Positions 1 to 24,337 of a DNA stretch of 24,680 nt are shown here, one piece after another; position 1 is the stretch's first letter; every line of letters begins with the position of its first letter. This DNA comes from a virus. The DNA is taken from the IMG/VR virus record IMGVR_UViG_3300005753_000011, positions 1 to 24,680 of that record; one strand, 5' to 3'. Both the position numbers and the translations under genes were made by a program. The notes beneath the pieces are model-generated. The model saw only the letters and a program-made list of their open reading frames with translations, had not been told where the DNA came from and did no database searches.

Positions 1-1476
1 ATTGCTAAACGAGGTTGAGTCCAGGGCTTCGCGGAAATTTTCGCCCATTGCTTCACGCATACGCGCTTTGTCACAATCACGCATGTGGCCCGTGACACGC
101 CGATCACCCGTAATTTGTATATAGCATTCTTTAAATGATGTAACGCCGCGATTTTTCTTGTCGAAGAAATCGTCGAGCATTTTGTCAACTTTTTCAGAGT
201 ACTGTTCCCCGGCCTCAATAGTTGAATTGTCACCGAGTTCCAACACATGACCGGACTCTCTAAAATTTGACAGATAAACGCCTTCTGCCTTGATCGCATC
301 ATGTACCTGAGCTTCGGTAAACGTGGCGTTTTCGCCGAACTGCACACGTAGTTTGTCTTTCGCTGGATCAGGTAATTTAGACTCAGCAATGGCCGCACGT
401 GCCGTTGCACGCGCTTCGACCATGCGAATCATTTGTGTTGTTTCATCTCTCGACATAGTCTGCTGGCCTGTATCACCGGCATTGGCAGGGGGAGAAGCCG
501 CTGCCGGTGATTGCCCGCCATCGGGCTTCTTCGCTGGGGGATTGTTTGTAGCAAGTGCTTCCTTGTAGGATGCCTCTAATGTTTCATCGTTATCGATATC
601 AAGCCCGTCTGGCAGGCTTCCCTTGTTGGATTTTTTGATCGCCTCGATCATACGTTCACGTAGTGCCATGTCAGCATCCACCTCCGGTTTAAGTGCTTCG
701 ATTAAATTTATGATTTCGCCACCAGCGCCTGGTTCGATAATCAAATCGACGCTGTTGATTTTCGTGAGACTCTCTGCAATACGACGACCGCGTTTATATT
801 TAGCCGTTCCGTCTGCATCTATCGAGAAACCGAACAATTCATTTGCCATGCCACGCGTATATGCTTCAAGCATTTTTGCAGGTACATCACCTGCGGTCGC
901 CAGTAGTTCAAGATCGGCCTGAATTTCACCTTTGTCTTTGCCCTGGCCCTCGATAAACGCTGAGTTACTCAAACGACCGATTAAATTAGAGAACGATTTA
1001 CCTTTAAAATTTAAATGCTCATCATCTGATTTGACAAATGCACGTGCACCATTAAATAAAGGAGCGGCCTTTCTCAATACCGAATCCGGATAAAATGTTC
1101 TGTTTCCGGACATACCTGATTCAATAACGCGTATTCGCCACAGCAGTCCTTTGTCATCTTTTGCTTCAACAAAAAAACCTGCAGCCTCAACCATTCTCAC
1201 TTGCTTATGGTCCAGAACAACTTCGCTGGGCTCGCCTAACTTAACCGAGTTGTTGTCATCTAATGTATACGGATACGCAAATAGACGGCCACCTTTGTCT
1301 ATCACAACACGATCCGGGTATATAGCATCGATAGGTACAAAATCAGTGACTAAGCGTAACTTTAATTCGTCTCTTAATAACTGAATAACAGCACGAAATT
1401 CAGTAGCAGCCGCTTCAACCAAAGATGCCTCACCATGAATTCCTCGCGCTGGTATTTTTTTGAATTTGTCAGTCAT
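1..1476 (-). CDS. Prohead protease / scaffold / major capsid polyprotein (3' end outside window)
   Basis: The frame is open from ATG at 1476 to the left edge: 492 residues, no stop. Residues ~110-255 resemble a prohead serine protease of the T4 gp21/herpes assemblin type: His154 (in DDEHLNF), Ser218 (in ELFGFSID) and Asp244 (in NSVDLIIEP), with spacing like the His-Ser-Asp triad of that family. Residues ~256-370 are charged, then Pro/Ala/Gly-rich, as expected of a scaffold or linker. From ~375 the sequence becomes folded-looking, with a segment (HMRDCDKARMREAMGENFRE, near the left edge) like the N-terminal part of major capsid proteins. Proteins annotated as 'prohead protease/major capsid protein fusion' exist in phages, and this fits. 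Start: ATG eight bases after the preceding stop, only a weak GAG ribosome site. The capsid part is inferred because the C-terminus is missing; a protease-scaffold protein alone is the alternative. Confidence 0.75.
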   Translation of the reverse strand, partial: MTDKFKKIPARGIHGEASLVEAAATEFRAVIQLLRDELKLRLVTDFVPIDAIYPDRVVIDKGGRLFAYPYTLDDNNSVKLGEPSEVVLDHKQVRMVEAAGFFVEAKDDKGLLWRIRVIESGMSGNRTFYPDSVLRKAAPLFNGARAFVKSDDEHLNFKGKSFSNLIGRLSNSAFIEGQGKDKGEIQADLELLATAGDVPAKMLEAYTRGMANELFGFSIDADGTAKYKRGRRIAESLTKINSVDLIIEPGAGGEIINLIEALKPEVDADMALRERMIEAIKKSNKGSLPDGLDIDNDETLEASYKEALATNNPPAKKPDGGQSPAAASPPANAGDTGQQTMSRDETTQMIRMVEARATARAAIAESKLPDPAKDKLRVQFGENATFTEAQVHDAIKAEGVYLSNFRESGHVLELGDNSTIEAGEQYSEKVDKMLDDFFDKKNRGVTSFKECYIQITGDRRVTGHMRDCDKARMREAMGENFREALDSTSFSN

Positions 1477-2889: not shown

Positions 2890-4362
2890 TTAATCCGGGT
2901 CATCAACTGAATCATCATCAGGTGGATCAGTAAATACATCTTCCTCATTTCTTTTCCCGGCTTCTGCGACTGCATTCTTCAATTCTTCATCTACATCATA
3001 TTCAACACCCAGCCGTGCGCTGATATTTCGGATGATATTGACCCCGGTCTTCGATGTCATAATGCCACGATCAATCGCCAAACCGACAGACACAGTGACT
3101 TGTTGTAATGCCGATGCGTATTTTGTGGTGTCCTTTGTGACCATTTCAGGGAATTCGACTTCAATCATATCCATCACGTTATCGTCAACAATGTCACCAT
3201 TGGCTAGCATCCATTGGCGTACAACATAACAACCCACTGTTTTCAATATATAACCCAAGTAACGTTGTCTCATTGAAAACATTTTAAATGTCGGATCACC
3301 CATCGCGTCTGCAGTCGATCGGTTCACATCACCGCCGCCACCGTACCAGGTCTCAGGTAATGTGGCTCCACCCAGTATATTATTGCGAAATAAACGGGCT
3401 GTTTCGTTTCCATCGCTGGCATTGAGGTCGGGTGTTAACGTCTCCCACACCTCGGAATCATTGTGTACGCGCACGCTTCTGGGTCCAGGTCGCGTGATTT
3501 GTTTTGCACGCGCAGTCACTTCGTCAGGCGTTGCGCCTTTCATTGTCACATCGTAGTTAAAGGCACGTAAATCTTGAGCGCGATCCAGCTCACCATACAT
3601 AAACTGGTCATACGCATCGAGCCAGTCAATTTGAGCAAGTAAATCAGATCGTCCGAATTTACCGTTCGAGATGTCATTTATCGGAAAATAAAACAATTCA
3701 CCGTCGGTAAAGTCTTCGCGTATTTCACGCGTACGCTGAGTAAACAAATCGTCTTCGTCACCATTGATAATGACTTTGTATTTTCGTGACCGTCCTTTTG
3801 AATCTTTTTTTGTCACCACACCAATCGGCAGCTCACTGTTGCCAGGATCAGTTACGACAGTCTGCACCAATGCCGGGTCCAGATAACCTAATCGCACATG
3901 GCCGGTCATTTCATTAACAAAGGCAGGCCAGAACTGCATGCCGAACAAAGACAGCTCGCGGCATTTTTTAGGTAATTTCAAATCCATTGCATTAATTGGA
4001 TCATCCCAAAACTTATCTAGAATATCCTGCACCACTTCATTGTCTGATTTCAGCTTGACGCCTTCAGCCAGCATGTACGCAATCGGTAATTCAATAATAC
4101 GATTCGCCAGCAGATTCGATTCCCATAAATACAGCGCCAGTTTCATCGACCGCTCGCGTGTCATGGGCGACAAATCACGATTACTGTCGCCAGTTAATTT
4201 GCGCCACTGATCTTCATCTTCATCAACCGTCACGCCGTGCGCTTCGACAAACTTGACAGCACTTGCATTGTATATATCTTGCGCATCAATGATGTCTCTC
4301 AACACTGTATCGCCCAACGAATCAGCGATTTTATGCCGTACATCCGTCTCAATCGCCGCCAT
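2890..4362 (-). CDS. Phage portal protein
   Basis: A 490-residue protein. The fold and order fit a portal: an N-terminal helical region, a segment with LWESNLLANRIIELPIAYML (about 79-98) typical of portal wings, a beta-rich middle (about 150-210), then a long helical C-terminal half ending in an acidic tail (DPPDDDSVDDPD). The portal forms the dodecameric ring through which the terminase packs DNA. It does not look like the DUF935/gp29 portal of Mu itself, so the head module seems to come from another lineage than the gp24-gp28-like packaging genes. GAGGA seven bases before the ATG supports the start. The 150-base gap upstream separates it from the tail-spike block. Confidence 0.8.
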   Translation of the reverse strand: MAAIETDVRHKIADSLGDTVLRDIIDAQDIYNASAVKFVEAHGVTVDEDEDQWRKLTGDSNRDLSPMTRERSMKLALYLWESNLLANRIIELPIAYMLAEGVKLKSDNEVVQDILDKFWDDPINAMDLKLPKKCRELSLFGMQFWPAFVNEMTGHVRLGYLDPALVQTVVTDPGNSELPIGVVTKKDSKGRSRKYKVIINGDEDDLFTQRTREIREDFTDGELFYFPINDISNGKFGRSDLLAQIDWLDAYDQFMYGELDRAQDLRAFNYDVTMKGATPDEVTARAKQITRPGPRSVRVHNDSEVWETLTPDLNASDGNETARLFRNNILGGATLPETWYGGGGDVNRSTADAMGDPTFKMFSMRQRYLGYILKTVGCYVVRQWMLANGDIVDDNVMDMIEVEFPEMVTKDTTKYASALQQVTVSVGLAIDRGIMTSKTGVNIIRNISARLGVEYDVDEELKNAVAEAGKRNEEDVFTDPPDDDSVDDPD

Positions 4363-4512: not shown

Positions 4513-5145
4513 TCATACAGGTGCAGCAAAGCCGAATTTGAACGATGGAATATTTATTGTGTTTGCATCCAAAATGGCCTGATCTGTCAGCTCATTGGTT
4601 ACCATCAACAGACGTGGAGTGCCACCGTCGTAGATTGCCAGATGTAGATCCTCATAGATTTCATAGGTCGATGTGTTGTCAGGTTGCGTATTCCAGTTCG
4701 ACGGTATCGTAATTGTGTCGCCTGTGTTCGACACAATCGTCTGCGTGGCTTGCTCTGCGCCGAAACCCGATGTGATCTTAATCACTTTTCCGGCATACGC
4801 AGCAGCCACCCATGATTTTAATGTATCAGTCAGCGTGTTCGACGTTGCACTACTGACATTACCAGTCTCGACCAATGGCACCGCGACTTGTGCTGTTCCA
4901 TTCTTTGCAATAATGGTAATTTCACGTCCACCCCCGGTTTTATTTCCTAGTGTCACATCGGCCTGTAACAATATAATTTCGTCGGAGATGCGTTTACCTG
5001 TCGGGAACAGCGTGGCTGCTTCACTTTGTGTCACTGGTTCACCAGCGCAAACCACCAGACGTAAAATACCACCGCCCCAGTTTGCCTCTACACCGATTTG
5101 TTCGAGGCCTTTATCAAGTATGTCGTTATTAAACATTTTACCCAT
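4513..5145 (-). CDS. Putative virion protein following tail spike, 210 aa
   Basis: Function not recognised. The protein is beta-rich and Thr/Ser/Asn-rich, without signal peptide or membrane segment. The start (NNDILDKGLEQI...W) recalls small structural proteins of other phages that open with 'LYDKGRE...W', but this is a weak likeness. The start overlaps the tail-spike stop by 8 bases, and GAGGA lies upstream of the ATG at 5145, so the two proteins are probably made together. A tail-spike accessory, collar or decoration protein is plausible; nothing in the sequence decides. Confidence 0.6.
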   Translation of the reverse strand: MGKMFNNDILDKGLEQIGVEANWGGGILRLVVCAGEPVTQSEAATLFPTGKRISDEIILLQADVTLGNKTGGGREITIIAKNGTAQVAVPLVETGNVSSATSNTLTDTLKSWVAAAYAGKVIKITSGFGAEQATQTIVSNTGDTITIPSNWNTQPDNTSTYEIYEDLHLAIYDGGTPRLLMVTNELTDQAILDANTINIPSFKFGFAAPV

Positions 5146-8100
5146 TTAAAATTCCTCGCCAGAAAAGATCGTGTGTATAGCGTGCAGTGGTGCCGTCTAG
5201 ATGTGTCACATCAACGAATATCTTCATAATATCTCCTTCAAATGCCGTTGAAGTTTCAATCTTGGTAACCAGGCCTCTGTCAACAACGTGTTTTAATGCA
5301 GCGGAAGCACGCGACTGAACATCATTCAATGCACCCTGATTAGCAACGGCACGCGATGAAAGCCAGATATCCGATCCAATCTGATCACCCTCTATCAATG
5401 CAAACGAGTCACCCCACCAGCCACGCACATCGCCTTTGCCTCCGGGCGTAACAGCATCATCATGCGCGTGCTTGTCTGTAAACAAGCTAGTATGAATCAA
5501 AAGACCCAGTCCATTATCCGTTGGTGCAGGCGCATCGCTTACCACGGCAGGAATAACAACGGGCTGATTGATTTGTATGTCGTCAACAACGCCGGCACTG
5601 TAAGTATCACCAGCAGTCAAGACGTGCGTTCCTGCGGTCGAAGTAAATATAGCCATCAACCGCATATCTGTGTCAGCGTTTTGTAATTTGGCTTGAATGT
5701 CGCCATTGCTATCAGGTTTAGTCACCCAATAAGCCTTACGTGTGCCTGGGTCAAAATACTGATCGTCGGCATCACCGTTTTTTCGAATATTGAATGCATT
5801 ATCATACGAGGCGCACACATCAAAAAAGTAACCTATAGCATTTGCTGGTAGCGTTGTTATTGGCTGATAACTGGCTGTTATGGCTGGCCCATAATCTATA
5901 GGTGAAACGTAATAAATAACTCCGCCAATCATATAACCTAATAAACGTACATTAGTCTTTGCTGAATCTAAATAAACATCGAATGACTTTGCACTATCAA
6001 CACCTACGCCACCGCCAATGTGACGTTGAATAACAGAGTTTATATTTGTGTATGCCGCTGCTGAATCACCAGGTCGAAGACCAACGGTAAGGCCATTACT
6101 GACAGTGTCAATTTCTAACAACGCAAAAATTGGCACGTCTGACCCTGCTTGCGCAGTAATGTCAACCGTGTACCAGCCAGGCACAGTATATGTCGGCGTT
6201 ACATCAATCGGCGTTGATAAGAATATGGATTCACCACGAAAATAACCCACTATTTCAAATGTGCTGTTTACAGTGTCGTTTGTATACGTCTGAAATGTAT
6301 CCTTTCCAGTATCGCCTAATCCGACATAATGCATTGTATGAGTAGATGTAGATAAATTAGACGTTGGCGCGAAAGTATCGCCAAAACGCCTTACTCCACA
6401 AGATATTTGTCCACCTGCTGTGTTAGATACTCTAACCATCACTCCTGTTACGTTGGGGTCACTGACTATCGTTGATTTCCACGCGCTGTTTGTCGTAGGT
6501 GAGCAATCAACAAAATCAGCTGAGTCGAGCAGCAAGACGCCGTTTGACGAAATCGGTGCAAGCGGCGCAAAAGTGTCAGTTTTTATTAAAACTGAATTTA
6601 ATCTTGCAATATTGTTTACCCAACTGCCGTGTTGAAATCCACTGTATTTTCCTTGCGTGATAGTGCTATCTTGCCAAACAATCTTGTTTACGCCATCCAT
6701 CTTGAGTGTCAAATTTGACCCTTCTATTTTAAGCGTTGCAATATAAGTAAGCGCCGTGTTAATAGTAAAATTAACCTGTACCAGCAGCGTATCAATATTT
6801 GCTATTCTTTTTAATAACTTCAGGGAATTGACGCCTGAGCGTATAACTACGAAATAAGTAGTTTCTAGTCCTGACGCTAAACCATCATGTCTGACAAATA
6901 AATGCAGTCTATTATCTGTAAGTCCAGGATAAAATGGCGCTTCTATTTCTTGATTATTCGATCCTGCGTAATAAATTAAGCCATTATTTGCAGCGTTAAA
7001 CTTCAGTGCACCGGTATCCAATACAGGACTAGCCAATACTGCTGCACTACCCTGACCGCTTGAATCTATCTCTAGCTGACTCGCGGTCGCAAGAGCGCCA
7101 TCAGTTCCGACGAAATCATCACTGATTCTAGTCGTCCACACAGCCGACCCAGAGCCTGCCCCATATCTAAATGCCCCAACAGATGTGCCGTAAGCGTTCC
7201 CATCCGGGTCTAATTCAGAGTGAGTCTCCCCGACATGTGTTCCGATCGGGATATGAAAATCTGGCGGTGTACCAGTTTCATTCGCGAAAGTGTCTTTAGT
7301 GGCGAAATTACCAGTAAAATTATCCCCTAAAGTTGCAGCTTCAGCACCTGCGATAGTGTAAACTGTGCCCTTGTAATTTATTAAATTTACTACGCCCGAT
7401 CTAAAAAGAGTGTTTTTTCTCCATGTATTTCCAGTTATACCAACATAATTATTAACAATAATTTGTCTGTCATAGCCAGTCGGAGCTCCGCAATTTAAAA
7501 TAATATTATTCTCACCGGTATTATTAATTATACCGGCTCCACCATTATCGCTCAGTCTGATTCCACCAGCATCGCAGTTTGTAAGTACATTGCAGAAAAT
7601 CAATAAATTTCTTATTGTGTCAGATCCGGCTTGTGTAAATAAATTTAATCCTGCTCCATTATTTGTTTCCCTGTTTTTATTTGAAATAGCATTGCCATAA
7701 TAAAGAGTAGCTTGCATGCCTGTGTGCGTATGTGATGGGCAGTCATCTTCTATATTGTAGCGAATAAAGTTACCAGATGCGTTGTTTGTCGCACCGCTAA
7801 CTGTACCGCCGAATTGCCAACCACGACCATGATTCGCATTAGGTGCAGAAAATTCATTGTACGATATTATATTGTTTTTAAAGTCTGTAGCGCTATCTAC
7901 TATTATTCCCGCGTGTGTGTAATCGATAGTCTTGTTATTGTTGTAATTAGAATTAGTCGACTGCTTACTTAAAGCTAGTGCATCTTTGTTACCGTCATCA
8001 ACGTTTTCAATTTCACCACCATTTAAATTGAAGTCAAATATATTGTTTGTAACAGCAGCATTATCAGTAGCGAAATTACCGAATAAAACGGATCGTCTGA

Positions 8101-8962
8101 ATTGATTACTAAATCTATTATTGTTAATTATGGTGTTATCTAAGGTATTGCCATTGTTCTCCCAGATATTTAGCGGACCACCGTGCAACTCAACACCATC
8201 TAATTTGAAGCCGCCTTTAGCTGCACCGTTGGGGTTTTTTACAACGATTAAATCTTTATCAAACCCAACAACTTCAACGCCAATCGTTAGTAATGACGGA
8301 TCACCGTAAATATACAGCTCAGACCCTGACTGGAACCACTTATCTGTGGCATTTACACCGGCGACATTTGCAGAGTTTGATTGAGATTCATCGTCTAATA
8401 ATATTCTTGCGGTGCCAGACAAATCGACAGAGCTGACAGTATTATCGAGCGTTCCTGAATCGAGCGTAAAATCCAGTCTTCCTAGACTACTTACAGTATT
8501 GTCTGGCGAAGTAATCGTCCCATACCACGGGCCACCTGATCCATTTAATCTAATTCGTCGACCGAATCTATACAAAGGATCTTTAGCATTGGCTCCCGAA
8601 ATATTAATTCTCGTCTGGCTGACAAAAGACGCCGTGGAAGAATACCGACCCCAATTTGAATATGTTTTTTTATAAACCGAACCAGAATGTAAGGAAAACC
8701 CGGTGACAAGATCATTGTTTGTATATATCGGTCTCGCGCCAGTGTTGTACGGCTCGATAGAGAACTGCACGCTTGCAGCCACGTCGAATATTTGCCAAGC
8801 GGCAAACGCAGCATTTCTAAACCGGCTTCCAGATTTGAGAAAGAAAGAACCACCGCTGACAAGGAATGAGGTTTTATTTTCTGGTCTTTTATACGGACTG
8901 AGATCAGAGTCACCTGTATTCAAAGTGTCATCGCCTAACTCGAAATCAAACCATTTACTCAT
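5138..8962 (-). CDS. Giant tail spike with beta-helix and C-terminal Mu gp46-like baseplate domain
   Basis: A 1274-residue protein. Residues ~240-530 are Asn/Gly-rich short strands with repeated N-N-x-I/F patterns, typical of a right-handed parallel beta-helix as in tail spikes and pectate-lyase-like proteins. Residues ~610-790 look like a lectin/concanavalin-like beta sandwich (SDDFVGTDGALATASQ). Several beta-rich segments follow. Residues ~1149-1274 resemble the Mu gp46 baseplate family: LLIHTSLFTD, PGGKGDVRGWWGD, QIGSDIWLSSR, then an alpha/beta end. Gp46 is normally a separate protein of about 150 residues in the baseplate gene cluster. The fusion could anchor a receptor-binding or glycan-degrading spike to the baseplate. 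Neighbours overlap on both sides: ATGA with the upstream gene, 8 bases with the downstream one. Enzymatic activity cannot be read from the sequence. Confidence 0.8.
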   Translation of the reverse strand: MSKWFDFELGDDTLNTGDSDLSPYKRPENKTSFLVSGGSFFLKSGSRFRNAAFAAWQIFDVAASVQFSIEPYNTGARPIYTNNDLVTGFSLHSGSVYKKTYSNWGRYSSTASFVSQTRINISGANAKDPLYRFGRRIRLNGSGGPWYGTITSPDNTVSSLGRLDFTLDSGTLDNTVSSVDLSGTARILLDDESQSNSANVAGVNATDKWFQSGSELYIYGDPSLLTIGVEVVGFDKDLIVVKNPNGAAKGGFKLDGVELHGGPLNIWENNGNTLDNTIINNNRFSNQFRRSVLFGNFATDNAAVTNNIFDFNLNGGEIENVDDGNKDALALSKQSTNSNYNNNKTIDYTHAGIIVDSATDFKNNIISYNEFSAPNANHGRGWQFGGTVSGATNNASGNFIRYNIEDDCPSHTHTGMQATLYYGNAISNKNRETNNGAGLNLFTQAGSDTIRNLLIFCNVLTNCDAGGIRLSDNGGAGIINNTGENNIILNCGAPTGYDRQIIVNNYVGITGNTWRKNTLFRSGVVNLINYKGTVYTIAGAEAATLGDNFTGNFATKDTFANETGTPPDFHIPIGTHVGETHSELDPDGNAYGTSVGAFRYGAGSGSAVWTTRISDDFVGTDGALATASQLEIDSSGQGSAAVLASPVLDTGALKFNAANNGLIYYAGSNNQEIEAPFYPGLTDNRLHLFVRHDGLASGLETTYFVVIRSGVNSLKLLKRIANIDTLLVQVNFTINTALTYIATLKIEGSNLTLKMDGVNKIVWQDSTITQGKYSGFQHGSWVNNIARLNSVLIKTDTFAPLAPISSNGVLLLDSADFVDCSPTTNSAWKSTIVSDPNVTGVMVRVSNTAGGQISCGVRRFGDTFAPTSNLSTSTHTMHYVGLGDTGKDTFQTYTNDTVNSTFEIVGYFRGESIFLSTPIDVTPTYTVPGWYTVDITAQAGSDVPIFALLEIDTVSNGLTVGLRPGDSAAAYTNINSVIQRHIGGGVGVDSAKSFDVYLDSAKTNVRLLGYMIGGVIYYVSPIDYGPAITASYQPITTLPANAIGYFFDVCASYDNAFNIRKNGDADDQYFDPGTRKAYWVTKPDSNGDIQAKLQNADTDMRLMAIFTSTAGTHVLTAGDTYSAGVVDDIQINQPVVIPAVVSDAPAPTDNGLGLLIHTSLFTDKHAHDDAVTPGGKGDVRGWWGDSFALIEGDQIGSDIWLSSRAVANQGALNDVQSRASAALKHVVDRGLVTKIETSTAFEGDIMKIFVDVTHLDGTTARYTHDLFWRGILNG

Positions 8963-9453
8963 TTGCTTTGATAGGATTTTCCATTAAGTTTAAAGAGTTC
9001 AAACGTTTTCTCCCAGTCAACTTCGTTCATATTAAATTCGATGCCTAATTTAGACAGCTTCTCTCGTAGACCACTGACTATCTGGACAACACTCGTTATT
9101 CTTCTTTGGCAAACATCAATAGATATGTGCCGCTTTATTGTTGTAAGTACACTTTCAACGTCAGCAAACATGTTGTGAATTAATTTCCATTGTCTATTTT
9201 GCTCGGCAGCAAATGACCTTGTAAAATACAAAGTAGTTTCTTGATTGCTTTGACCATCGATATTTTGCTGCTGAACTTGTCTAATATAGTCTTCTAGTTG
9301 ATTTATTCGCTTCCACATTTGTGCTTTAGAAGGCATCTTTACATCGTATTCGAACCTCTTCACTTCAAACATCTCCAGCGGTTTTAGTTGAGGTTCGCGG
9401 ATATTAACAACATTACTGTCTCTGTCTGGAAGTTTTAAATTAACTTTTTCCAT
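8959..9453 (-). CDS. Putative coiled-coil protein of the tail-spike cassette, 164 aa
   Basis: Not recognised. It is charged and mostly helical, with heptad-like stretches at about 45-65 (MWKRINQLEDYIRQVQQQN) and 85-135, no signal peptide and no membrane segment. A GAGGA ribosome site precedes the ATG. Its stop overlaps the start of the tail-spike gene (ATGA), which suggests coupled translation and a partner role such as chaperone, trimerisation helper or baseplate adaptor for the spike. This is inference from context only. Confidence 0.6.
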   Translation of the reverse strand: MEKVNLKLPDRDSNVVNIREPQLKPLEMFEVKRFEYDVKMPSKAQMWKRINQLEDYIRQVQQQNIDGQSNQETTLYFTRSFAAEQNRQWKLIHNMFADVESVLTTIKRHISIDVCQRRITSVVQIVSGLREKLSKLGIEFNMNEVDWEKTFELFKLNGKSYQSK

Positions 9454-9479
9454 TATTTTTTTCCTCGTATAGTTTCTTG

Positions 9480-11114
9480 CTACCGAAACATCGATACACG
9501 CTGACGGCCTTGCATAGACTCAGGCTCGTAGTCATCATCATTAATAGAATCAACTGTTTCACCCGCCGCCGGTTGACCTTCCTGATTTGTCGCAGCCCAG
9601 GCAAGTAGCCCGGCCACTGCAGAATCACCGTGACGTTGTTTACCATCGCTGCCTTTGTCACGACCATCATCCATTTTCGGGATGCCTTTAACTAAAATCA
9701 CTCGTCGGTGATCTGCAATAACATCTTCCGACTTCGGTACAATAATAGATTTGTCTTCGTAGGCACTTTTGTATTTAGGGAAATTTTCTGAGTACCACTT
9801 CAGAGATAGCATCACACATTCAACTTTGTGAGCTCCGGAATGCTGCATGGCTTTTTCAGCATGCGACTGGCCATTACCGCGTGCATCAAATTTGGCATGA
9901 TGAAACAATGGAAATTCATCCATGATGTAGCGAATTATATGTTCCTGTACATCGAATGGAATATTCCTGAGCTCCAGAATAAAGGGTGTTCGCCATTGTG
10001 TCGGTGCTTCTTGTTGCAATGGCCATATCACAGATAAATCGCCACTGCGTCCAAAATCCTGACCGAAAACGGTACGCTGGTCAGTCGGCATATTATCGAT
10101 AACGGGTTTCAGAATATCCTTGATCCATATATCAGTTTCAGCAATACGCGAATCATTCGTCACCCACGAAGCTGATTTAGTAAAATTAAGTATTGGTATA
10201 CCTTCTTGCGAACAACGCTCAATCAGGATTCGTGTGAAATATGAGCCTGAACCTTTCTTCGGAATACAACCAAGCTCTTCGTTTGCATCTTCCTGATCAG
10301 GATAGTCTGCATACGCATCGGCTTTAAACTGTACTTCTTTTTCTTTCGACCAATCAACGCCGGTCACCAAACAAATACGCTTATAAAAACCTTCGCTCAG
10401 TGCTTTATCAAAATCGATTCGATGATAAGACCACGGCAATTTACCGGCTTTGATTTCTTTCTCGAACTCATAAAACACATTATCTTCACCATTCTCGGTG
10501 CTGACTATATCAATGCGCCCACCCCACAACCGGAACGCCAGCGCACCCTTAACAACTTCGCGCAACGACTGATGAAACGCTGCCTCGTCAATACGCGCAT
10601 GGCCTTGCCGCCCACGCCAGTTGTGTGGCGCAGAACTCAATGCTTCGTAAACATGACCGCTGGCAAACGTGATCTTATATTTAATGATATCTTTACTTTC
10701 ATTCGCCAACACATGGCGTTCTTTTTTAACACTGATCGCGCCAGCCGCAAGCGAGTAGGCACGCGCAAAAAAAGCAGCATCGCCGATGTTCTCCGCAGCC
10801 ATGCCAAGATTGAACCCCATATAATATTGGTCCATGCCGCTATTCATTGCCGCTTCCATCACGCCCTCTGCAGCAAGTGATCCCCACGAGAAGCCAATAC
10901 GGCGTGACTTCGCGCAAAATCGGACAGTCGATTTATCCTGGTGCCATCGCGCCTGATAAGGTAATAGTATTTTCGGTACCTCGATAAGCTTTAGTTTCTT
11001 ACTCGCACGCGGCACCTGGGCTTCTTCCACTAATTCGATGTAATCTTTTTCTTCACCCTTGCCAAGCTGTACCTGCTCAACTTTCGTGTGTTCAGCAACA
11101 GGCTGTTCAGACAT
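9480..11114 (-). CDS. Terminase large subunit (Mu gp28-like)
   Basis: A 544-residue DNA-packaging motor. The ATPase domain shows a Walker A variant KSRRIGFS (about 69-76), Walker B-like RIDEAAF with Asp176-Glu177, and a coupling motif STENG (205-209). The nuclease domain starts at VFGQDFGRSGD (Asp353), with further acidic candidates Asp410 (AKFDARGNG) and Asp497 (HGDSAVAGLLAW). This is the layout of the gp28 family of Mu-like phages, which packs headful lengths from integrated copies with host DNA at the ends. The gene overlaps the DUF3486 gene by 8 bases, and GGGGTGA lies before the ATG. In Mu the portal follows directly; here the tail-spike block intervenes. Confidence 0.92.
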   Translation of the reverse strand: MSEQPVAEHTKVEQVQLGKGEEKDYIELVEEAQVPRASKKLKLIEVPKILLPYQARWHQDKSTVRFCAKSRRIGFSWGSLAAEGVMEAAMNSGMDQYYMGFNLGMAAENIGDAAFFARAYSLAAGAISVKKERHVLANESKDIIKYKITFASGHVYEALSSAPHNWRGRQGHARIDEAAFHQSLREVVKGALAFRLWGGRIDIVSTENGEDNVFYEFEKEIKAGKLPWSYHRIDFDKALSEGFYKRICLVTGVDWSKEKEVQFKADAYADYPDQEDANEELGCIPKKGSGSYFTRILIERCSQEGIPILNFTKSASWVTNDSRIAETDIWIKDILKPVIDNMPTDQRTVFGQDFGRSGDLSVIWPLQQEAPTQWRTPFILELRNIPFDVQEHIIRYIMDEFPLFHHAKFDARGNGQSHAEKAMQHSGAHKVECVMLSLKWYSENFPKYKSAYEDKSIIVPKSEDVIADHRRVILVKGIPKMDDGRDKGSDGKQRHGDSAVAGLLAWAATNQEGQPAAGETVDSINDDDYEPESMQGRQRVSMFR

Positions 11115-23620: not shown

Positions 23621-24337
23621 ATGAGTGCAATTATAAAAATAAAAGATGAACAAAGCGTATTGATAGAACAGTACAGCCCGTTGGTTAACCGCATAGCAAA
23701 TTTCCTAATTTTACCTTTCAAAGAAATAATGCAAGTCAGTGACCTAATACAAGTAGGAATGATAGGGTTGATTAAAGCGTCTGATAACTATGTCGAGACC
23801 AAAGGCGCTACCCGCGACACTTATTACAATATATGGATACGCGGTGCAATGCTCGATGAAATAAGACGAAATGTATGGTCACCTCGATCAGTCGGCTTAA
23901 AATTACGAATGATTGACAGCGCAAAATCAAATGTAGAAAATTCCGCATTCCACATCGCCAGTGACCGAGATATTGCAAAAGAGCTTCGCCTTAGCCTGCC
24001 AGAATATTCAAAAGTACTGGCAGATTCAGTTGCACAAACTCAAATTGGTTACGAAGACGTAAATATGAAAGAAAGTTATTTTTCTTCAGGTTTAACCGAC
24101 ACTACACCTGGCCCATCTGACAGCCTACAGAACGAAGACTACAAGCGAAGCTTTGCCACCCTTATATCCGAGTTACCTAAACAGGAACGCAAAGTAATAT
24201 CTCTTTATTACTATCAGGATCTGGACCAAAAGCAGATCAGCCAGATTATGGACGTAAGTGAAAGTCGCATAAGTCAAATCAGAAAATCCGCTCTTGAACG
24301 ACTAAAAAAACACAAAAAACAGTTTATTGAAGGCTAA
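23621..24337 (+). CDS. Phage-encoded sigma-70 family factor, FliA (sigma-28)-like
   Basis: 238 residues, the size of FliA. Region 2 spans about 15-86 with DLIQVGMIGLIKA and TYYNIWIRGAMLDEIRR (67-83), followed by the FliA-like linker VWSPRSVGLKLR. Region 3 is about 88-165. Region 4 is 175-235, with the -35-binding HTH QKQISQIMDVSESRISQIRK (203-222). FliA-type factors direct RNA polymerase to promoters of the TAAAGTTT-N11-GCCGATAA kind. GGAG eight bases before the ATG. As last but one gene of the early operon, directly after Mor, it is well placed to switch transcription to late genes. A host-derived flagellar sigma acquired by the phage is a likely origin. Confidence 0.9.
   Translation: MSAIIKIKDEQSVLIEQYSPLVNRIANFLILPFKEIMQVSDLIQVGMIGLIKASDNYVETKGATRDTYYNIWIRGAMLDEIRRNVWSPRSVGLKLRMIDSAKSNVENSAFHIASDRDIAKELRLSLPEYSKVLADSVAQTQIGYEDVNMKESYFSSGLTDTTPGPSDSLQNEDYKRSFATLISELPKQERKVISLYYYQDLDQKQISQIMDVSESRISQIRKSALERLKKHKKQFIEG

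Follow-up and report, generated by a model that had tools for sequence, protein, structure and literature searches.

The locus examined here raises the question of whether a baseplate wedge domain can stand at the end of a very long virion protein, and what it would do there. In an IMG/VR virus fragment of 24,680 bases (the whole stretch analysed, called the window below), the minus strand encodes a 1274-aa protein, spike-gp46, which an earlier note had read as a tail spike built into a Mu-type baseplate as a single chain. Domains of the gp46/gp25 type are regarded as a hallmark of the contractile tail, and phages are called contractile on their presence; spikes, for their part, are usually anchored by their N-terminus. 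The analysis addressed whether the gene is intact, what its two parts are, and in which kind of phage it lies.

The gene is a single uninterrupted frame of 1274 codons (Table 1). It overlaps the upstream gene by ATGA and the downstream gene by ATGGGTAA, and is therefore integral to the late operon. Ahead of the gp46 domain, the frame has no internal start preceded by a convincing ribosome-binding site. A frameshift artefact joining two genes, which the earlier note had named as grounds for refuting its reading, was thus ruled out, the frame containing neither a frameshift nor a stop.

Table 1 Features of the window in and around the spike-gp46 gene
Feature	Coordinates	Strand	Basis
Spike-like protein with C-terminal gp46 domain, 1274 aa	5138..8962	-	Single open frame, overlaps both neighbours
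gp46 domain, residues about 1149-1270	5153..5518	-	Pfam, PHROG, PDB sequence match, AlphaFold2 model, fold match
Two weak internal repeats, residues about 847-923 and 952-1026	5885..6424	-	Pairwise alignment, low-confidence model strands
Asn-rich region, residues 271-570, possible beta-helix (unproved)	7253..8152	-	17% Asn, weak motif excess
P0002, 210 aa, next gene after spike-gp46	4513..5145	-	Homologue in Mae-JY22 spike cassette
P0003, 164 aa, upstream of spike-gp46 gene	8959..9453	-	No family match above a curated cut-off
Terminase large subunit (TerL)	9480..11114	-	Pfam Terminase_6N, phrog_2
Portal protein	2890..4362	-	SPP1_portal, phrog_10963; 61% to L007, 54% to Mae-JY22

The C-terminus belongs to the gp46 family, far beyond chance. 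Pfam GP46 (PF07409) matched residues 1156-1257, the match covering almost all of the model (101 positions, of which 5-99 aligned; E 5.6e-18; 65.2 bits against a cut-off of 28.6), and PHROG 180 (phrog_180, baseplate wedge subunit) matched residues 1146-1271 (E 4.2e-19). A phmmer search retrieved Mu gp46 from the PDB (9ki1, E 5.6e-11), to which the domain is 33.6% identical. The motifs on which the assignment had originally been based (LFTD, GDVRGWWGD and IGSDIWLSSR) are all present. When residues 600-1274 were modelled with AlphaFold2 together with 41 gp46 relatives, high confidence was reached only at residues 1149-1270, with block means mostly at pLDDT 69-98. This modelled domain aligned to Mu gp46 (9ki1_A) with Z 11.5, unrelated rows lying near Z 5, and to T4 gp25 with Z 10.6 (5iv5) and 10.0; sheath initiators of other contractile systems also aligned well above the background rows, and Foldseek matched the domain to 9ki1 with probability 1.00. 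Compared with a normal gp46, the domain lacks only the initial ~22 residues, and the long N-terminal part stands in their place. The structure prediction that the earlier note had proposed as a check thus agrees with its reading of the C-terminus, as do the profile searches, a failure of which it had named as grounds for abandoning that reading.

The description of the first ~1000 residues as beta-helix and lectin-like fared differently. Pfam and PHROG searches with residues 1-620, 605-800 and 800-1140, read up to E 5, returned no match, and neither did NCBIfam for the N-terminal part nor a PDB sequence search with the N-terminal parts searched. AlphaFold2 run without an alignment gave a pLDDT of 30 for residues 1-620. 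The Asn-rich region has a weak excess of NxIxxN-type steps. The two internal repeats are 26% identical over 77 aa (pairwise E 4e-6), their strands appear in the AlphaFold2 model at low confidence, and they probably form a beta-sandwich stalk. Lectin- or CBM-like fold matches at residues about 826-911 were rejected, their Z of about 4 lying within background. The N-terminal half is lower in GC (0.40) than the gp46 domain (0.48). Neither the full protein nor its first 1139 residues had a close homologue in IMG/VR, as searched with peptide patterns, or among 50,697 phage records, and a plasmid search with the full protein gave none either. Because the N-terminal part has no profile match, no relative and no confident fold, its spike-like nature is something that we infer, as plausible, from its length and composition and from the neighbouring genes.

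The gene lies in the order TerS, TerL, P0003, spike-gp46, P0002, portal, gp30 and protease, and is thus flanked by P0003/TerL and P0002/portal instead of by gp45 and gp47. P0003 matched no family above a curated cut-off in Pfam, PHROG or NCBIfam. There is no gp47 in the 24,680-base window, a fragment that ends before the tail genes, inside the protease/MCP gene. The protease-scaffold and the major capsid protein are apparently one fused gene in this lineage (window 1-1476; L002:33019-35334 and L007:15075-17363), as judged from phrog_29592 and from phrog_133 and phrog_4523 in the second half; the window stops short of the capsid portion. Positions 23621-24337, which follow GemA and close the early region, encode a sigma-70 family factor (Pfam regions 2 and 4) in this Mu-like phage.

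By portal identity, the closest relatives are L007 and the Microcystis phage Mae-JY22 (L002, PP438414), and more than 10 window genes, both early and late, have tblastn relatives in the latter. The portals of the window and L007 (60.8%) are as similar as those of Mae-JY22 and L007 (59.3%), which places the window phage inside that bracket for this gene; for gp30 the identity of window and L007 is likewise as high as that of Mae-JY22 and L007. For TerL and the protease, Mae-JY22 and L007 are closer to each other and the window is more distant. The two relatives have a common long-tail module (terminator-like protein, tape measure, tail hub phrog_11439 and fibre) and their tail modules are non-contractile, with no GP46, Baseplate_J or sheath in either. 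GP46 was also absent from the relatives with a portal identity of at least 27%, and Baseplate_J and sheath from the viral relatives tested with a portal identity of at least 31%, several of which are records of 39-45 kb. Since the relatives lack contractile genes, parsimony favours a non-contractile tail for the window phage as well, whose contig stops before the tail genes.

The relatives also bear on the setting of the spike-gp46 gene. P0002 is 32% identical over 121 aa (E 6e-7) to the product of positions 39320-39664 of Mae-JY22. There, this P0002 homologue shares the gap between portal and gp30 with a fibre-tail adaptor of the Gp77 type (PF23148) and with a beta-helix spike. This gap and the spike-gp46 gene beside P0002 are read as one variable spike cassette. 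Next to the cassette, positions L002:39942-40619 encode a 225-aa protein with roughly 30-residue repeats of the type DATHAHxVDxIALTQxHQL. The corresponding gap in L007 holds a protein matching phrog_3758, which is filed as a head-and-packaging virion structural protein.

The window domain has kept the gp46 fold and lost conserved residues. In an alignment with 41 other gp46 domains, which average 1.4 changes at 34 near-invariant positions and reach 8 at most, the window domain is altered at 12. This count is partly biased, as most of the comparison sequences were chosen in the first scan by the pattern GS[RD]L[WY]LL. Outside this motif, the domain still differs at nine near-invariant positions. 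The basic residue of the GSR motif, R or K in all ten gp46 of cultured phages, which were picked independently of the pattern, is replaced by D in the window (R1198 to D, GSDIW), so that the conserved GS[R/K]LW motif of a functional Mu gp46 is absent. A retained fold with altered conserved residues is as expected of a reused docking module, and relaxed selection on an extra gp46 copy would look the same. For the single-chain proposal, these results mean that one chain does join a long region to gp46. The proposed Mu baseplate setting is not supported, given that the gene lies between terminase and portal, that the window contains no gp47, that the nearest relatives are non-contractile and that conserved residues are altered.

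Gp46 fusions of this kind are rare. In tblastn against the phage collection, 27 records matched, all in the C-terminal region only. Eleven of these were opened: in all nine annotated ones gp46 is a small protein of its own next to gp45 and gp47, L027, which is unannotated, has the same layout, and L025 has no annotation. The IMG/VR loci came from two sampled scans, and the counts cover the loci sampled. In the first set (n = 80), gp47 was directly adjacent in 71 loci and in the same locus in 6, and the other three reach a contig end, so that gp47 was nearby in 77 of 77 testable loci. Altogether 165 gp46 frames were examined over about 160 loci, some contigs being counted twice. Real N-terminal fusions were found in three of these loci: the window (1149 residues), L062 and L123. 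Five other long candidates (L135, L137, L118, L141 and L119) were discarded as spurious, being Arg-rich frames that stay open in high-GC DNA, gp46 beginning at a later methionine in four of them.

In L062 (IMGVR_UViG_3300005918_003326, 1-1164), at least 240 extra N-terminal residues precede gp46 in a frame of at least 387 aa that is open to the contig edge, and gp46 directly precedes gp47, gp48 and fibres. In L123 (IMGVR_UViG_3300018933_000008, 5563-10121), the only gp46 of this Mu-like 46 kb record has an Ig-like N-terminal domain of about 125 residues and has been relocated behind gp48 and fibres, followed by a 1239-aa spike-like protein. Judging by these two cases, surface domains can be added to gp46 itself within the baseplate clusters of real contractile phages. 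Two further loci (L045:3051-7086 and L058:664-2845) have a gp46 with a C-terminal Ig-like extension and at least one extra gene between gp46 and gp47; in L045 this gene encodes 1081 aa, and its end resembles an SGNH hydrolase by eye. Among 50 listed BFVD matches, the confident gp46/gp25 were small proteins of 113-154 aa with no fusion, and 395 genomes from the phylum to which G017 belongs contained no PF07409. The search for the same fusion in databases, which the earlier note had suggested, brought up two other gp46 with N-terminal domains and no close homologue of the full spike. No gp46/gp25 domain fused to a spike was found in the literature searched (open-access, with many journals missing), and gp46 with added surface domains, as found here, was not found there either.

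The explanation that we favour, for which we judge belief and doubt to be about equal, is that a spike-like adhesin is anchored on the virion by a repurposed C-terminal gp46 plug in a phage without a sheath. The gene would encode a long, probably receptor-binding virion protein whose gp46-fold C-terminus would serve as a docking plug onto the virion. The phage would be a Mu-like transposable one whose variable spike cassette sits amid packaging and head genes; in the window phage, adhesin and putative anchor would form one chain, and in Mae-JY22 spike and adaptor are encoded separately. Because the nearest relatives have non-contractile tails, the domain probably starts no sheath here. It has been reported that Mu gp46 resembles sheath domain I and contributes two strands that pair with the sheath arms, which starts the sheath (PMC11915804); the diverged and probably captured wedge domain may act as an adaptor, perhaps through this same strand-pairing. 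A broader proposal is that a siphoviral phage captured a wedge/sheath-initiator domain of contractile tails and made it the plug at the C-terminus of a giant spike, so that part of the contraction machine would serve generally as an adaptor for receptor-binding proteins; this we doubt somewhat more than we believe.

Several lines of evidence lead to the docking-plug explanation: the gp46 fold and sequence, the position between TerL and portal, the P0002 homologue in the Mae-JY22 cassette, the tail modules of the relatives, the altered near-invariant positions, and L062 and L123 as cases of N-terminal domains on gp46 in contractile clusters. It is weakened because the tail genes lie past the contig end and tail modules recombine, because the window falls outside the Mae-JY22 and L007 pair for TerL and protease, because of the partial bias in the divergence count, and because the N-terminal 1100 residues have no family or fold match to a spike.

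It is unlikely, in our judgement, that the phage is contractile and spike-gp46 its sole baseplate wedge 1, moved out of the cluster and placing a spike at each of the six wedges. L123, with its relocated only gp46, Ig-like domain and adjoining spike-like protein, and L062, with its extension right before gp47, are precedents for such an arrangement, the gp46 fold of the window protein is intact, and this explanation retains some weight because the tail genes lie beyond the end of the contig. Against it, the head-gene relatives lack every contractile gene tested, the gene lies among packaging genes and conserved gp46 residues are lost. Beta-helix tailspikes are moreover usually trimers, whereas gp46 is present in one copy per wedge.

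A contractile phage with a normal gp46 beyond the contig, in which spike-gp46 is an extra adhesin docking on sheath or baseplate, would account for both the relaxed conservation and the off-cluster position. We regard it as improbable, as it meets the same evidence against a contractile tail, and none of the four fused or extended cases searched has two gp46 copies in one record. Distinctly improbable is a head-attached fibre or decoration protein whose gp46 domain docks on capsid or neck and not on the tail; the gene does lie within the head module and the L007 gap protein does match a head-and-packaging family, but the corresponding Mae-JY22 cassette, with its fibre-tail adaptor and tail-spike match, points to the tail. 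An assembly chimera or decayed gene deserves very little credence, since the GC drop and the lack of a close relative of the full protein in the collections searched are set against a frame that is open over 1274 codons and overlaps both neighbours at start and stop, with a downstream neighbour, P0002, from the same phage lineage.

If the docking-plug explanation is correct, a gp46 spike anchor outside the baseplate cluster would mean that wedge domains are reusable as adaptors and that adhesins can also be fixed to virions by their C-terminus, and would warn against tail-type calls made from a gp46 domain alone.

Compared with known systems, the window domain resembles Mu gp46 (baseplate wedge 1, the sheath initiator; PDB 9ki1; PMC11915804) in both sequence and fold. 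Mu gp46 is a separate small protein encoded by a 438-base gene between gp45 and gp47, whereas the window domain makes up the C-terminal ~125 residues of a chain of 1274 aa encoded between terminase and portal, behind a 1149-residue N-terminal part and with GSR changed to GSD. The window protein is not classed as a working Mu gp46, from which it departs in size, gene position and motif. T4 gp25 and its relatives in contractile systems are similar in fold, but gp25 is a stand-alone sheath initiator with a sequence identity of 8-9%. L062 shares with the window a gp46 domain at the C-terminal end of a longer chain; it differs in that its baseplate cluster is a normal one, with gp47 and gp48 directly following, in keeping GSRLWLLSR and in its dissimilar N-terminal part. 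L123 likewise combines gp46 with an N-terminal domain outside the gp45-gp47 slot and beside a spike-like gene, yet its cluster is clearly of the contractile type (gp45, gp47 and gp48) and its extension is only about 125 aa. In Mae-JY22, which has no gp46, spike and adaptor are separate genes, while its head and early genes are related to those of the window and its P0002 homologue lies in a beta-helix spike cassette between portal and gp30.
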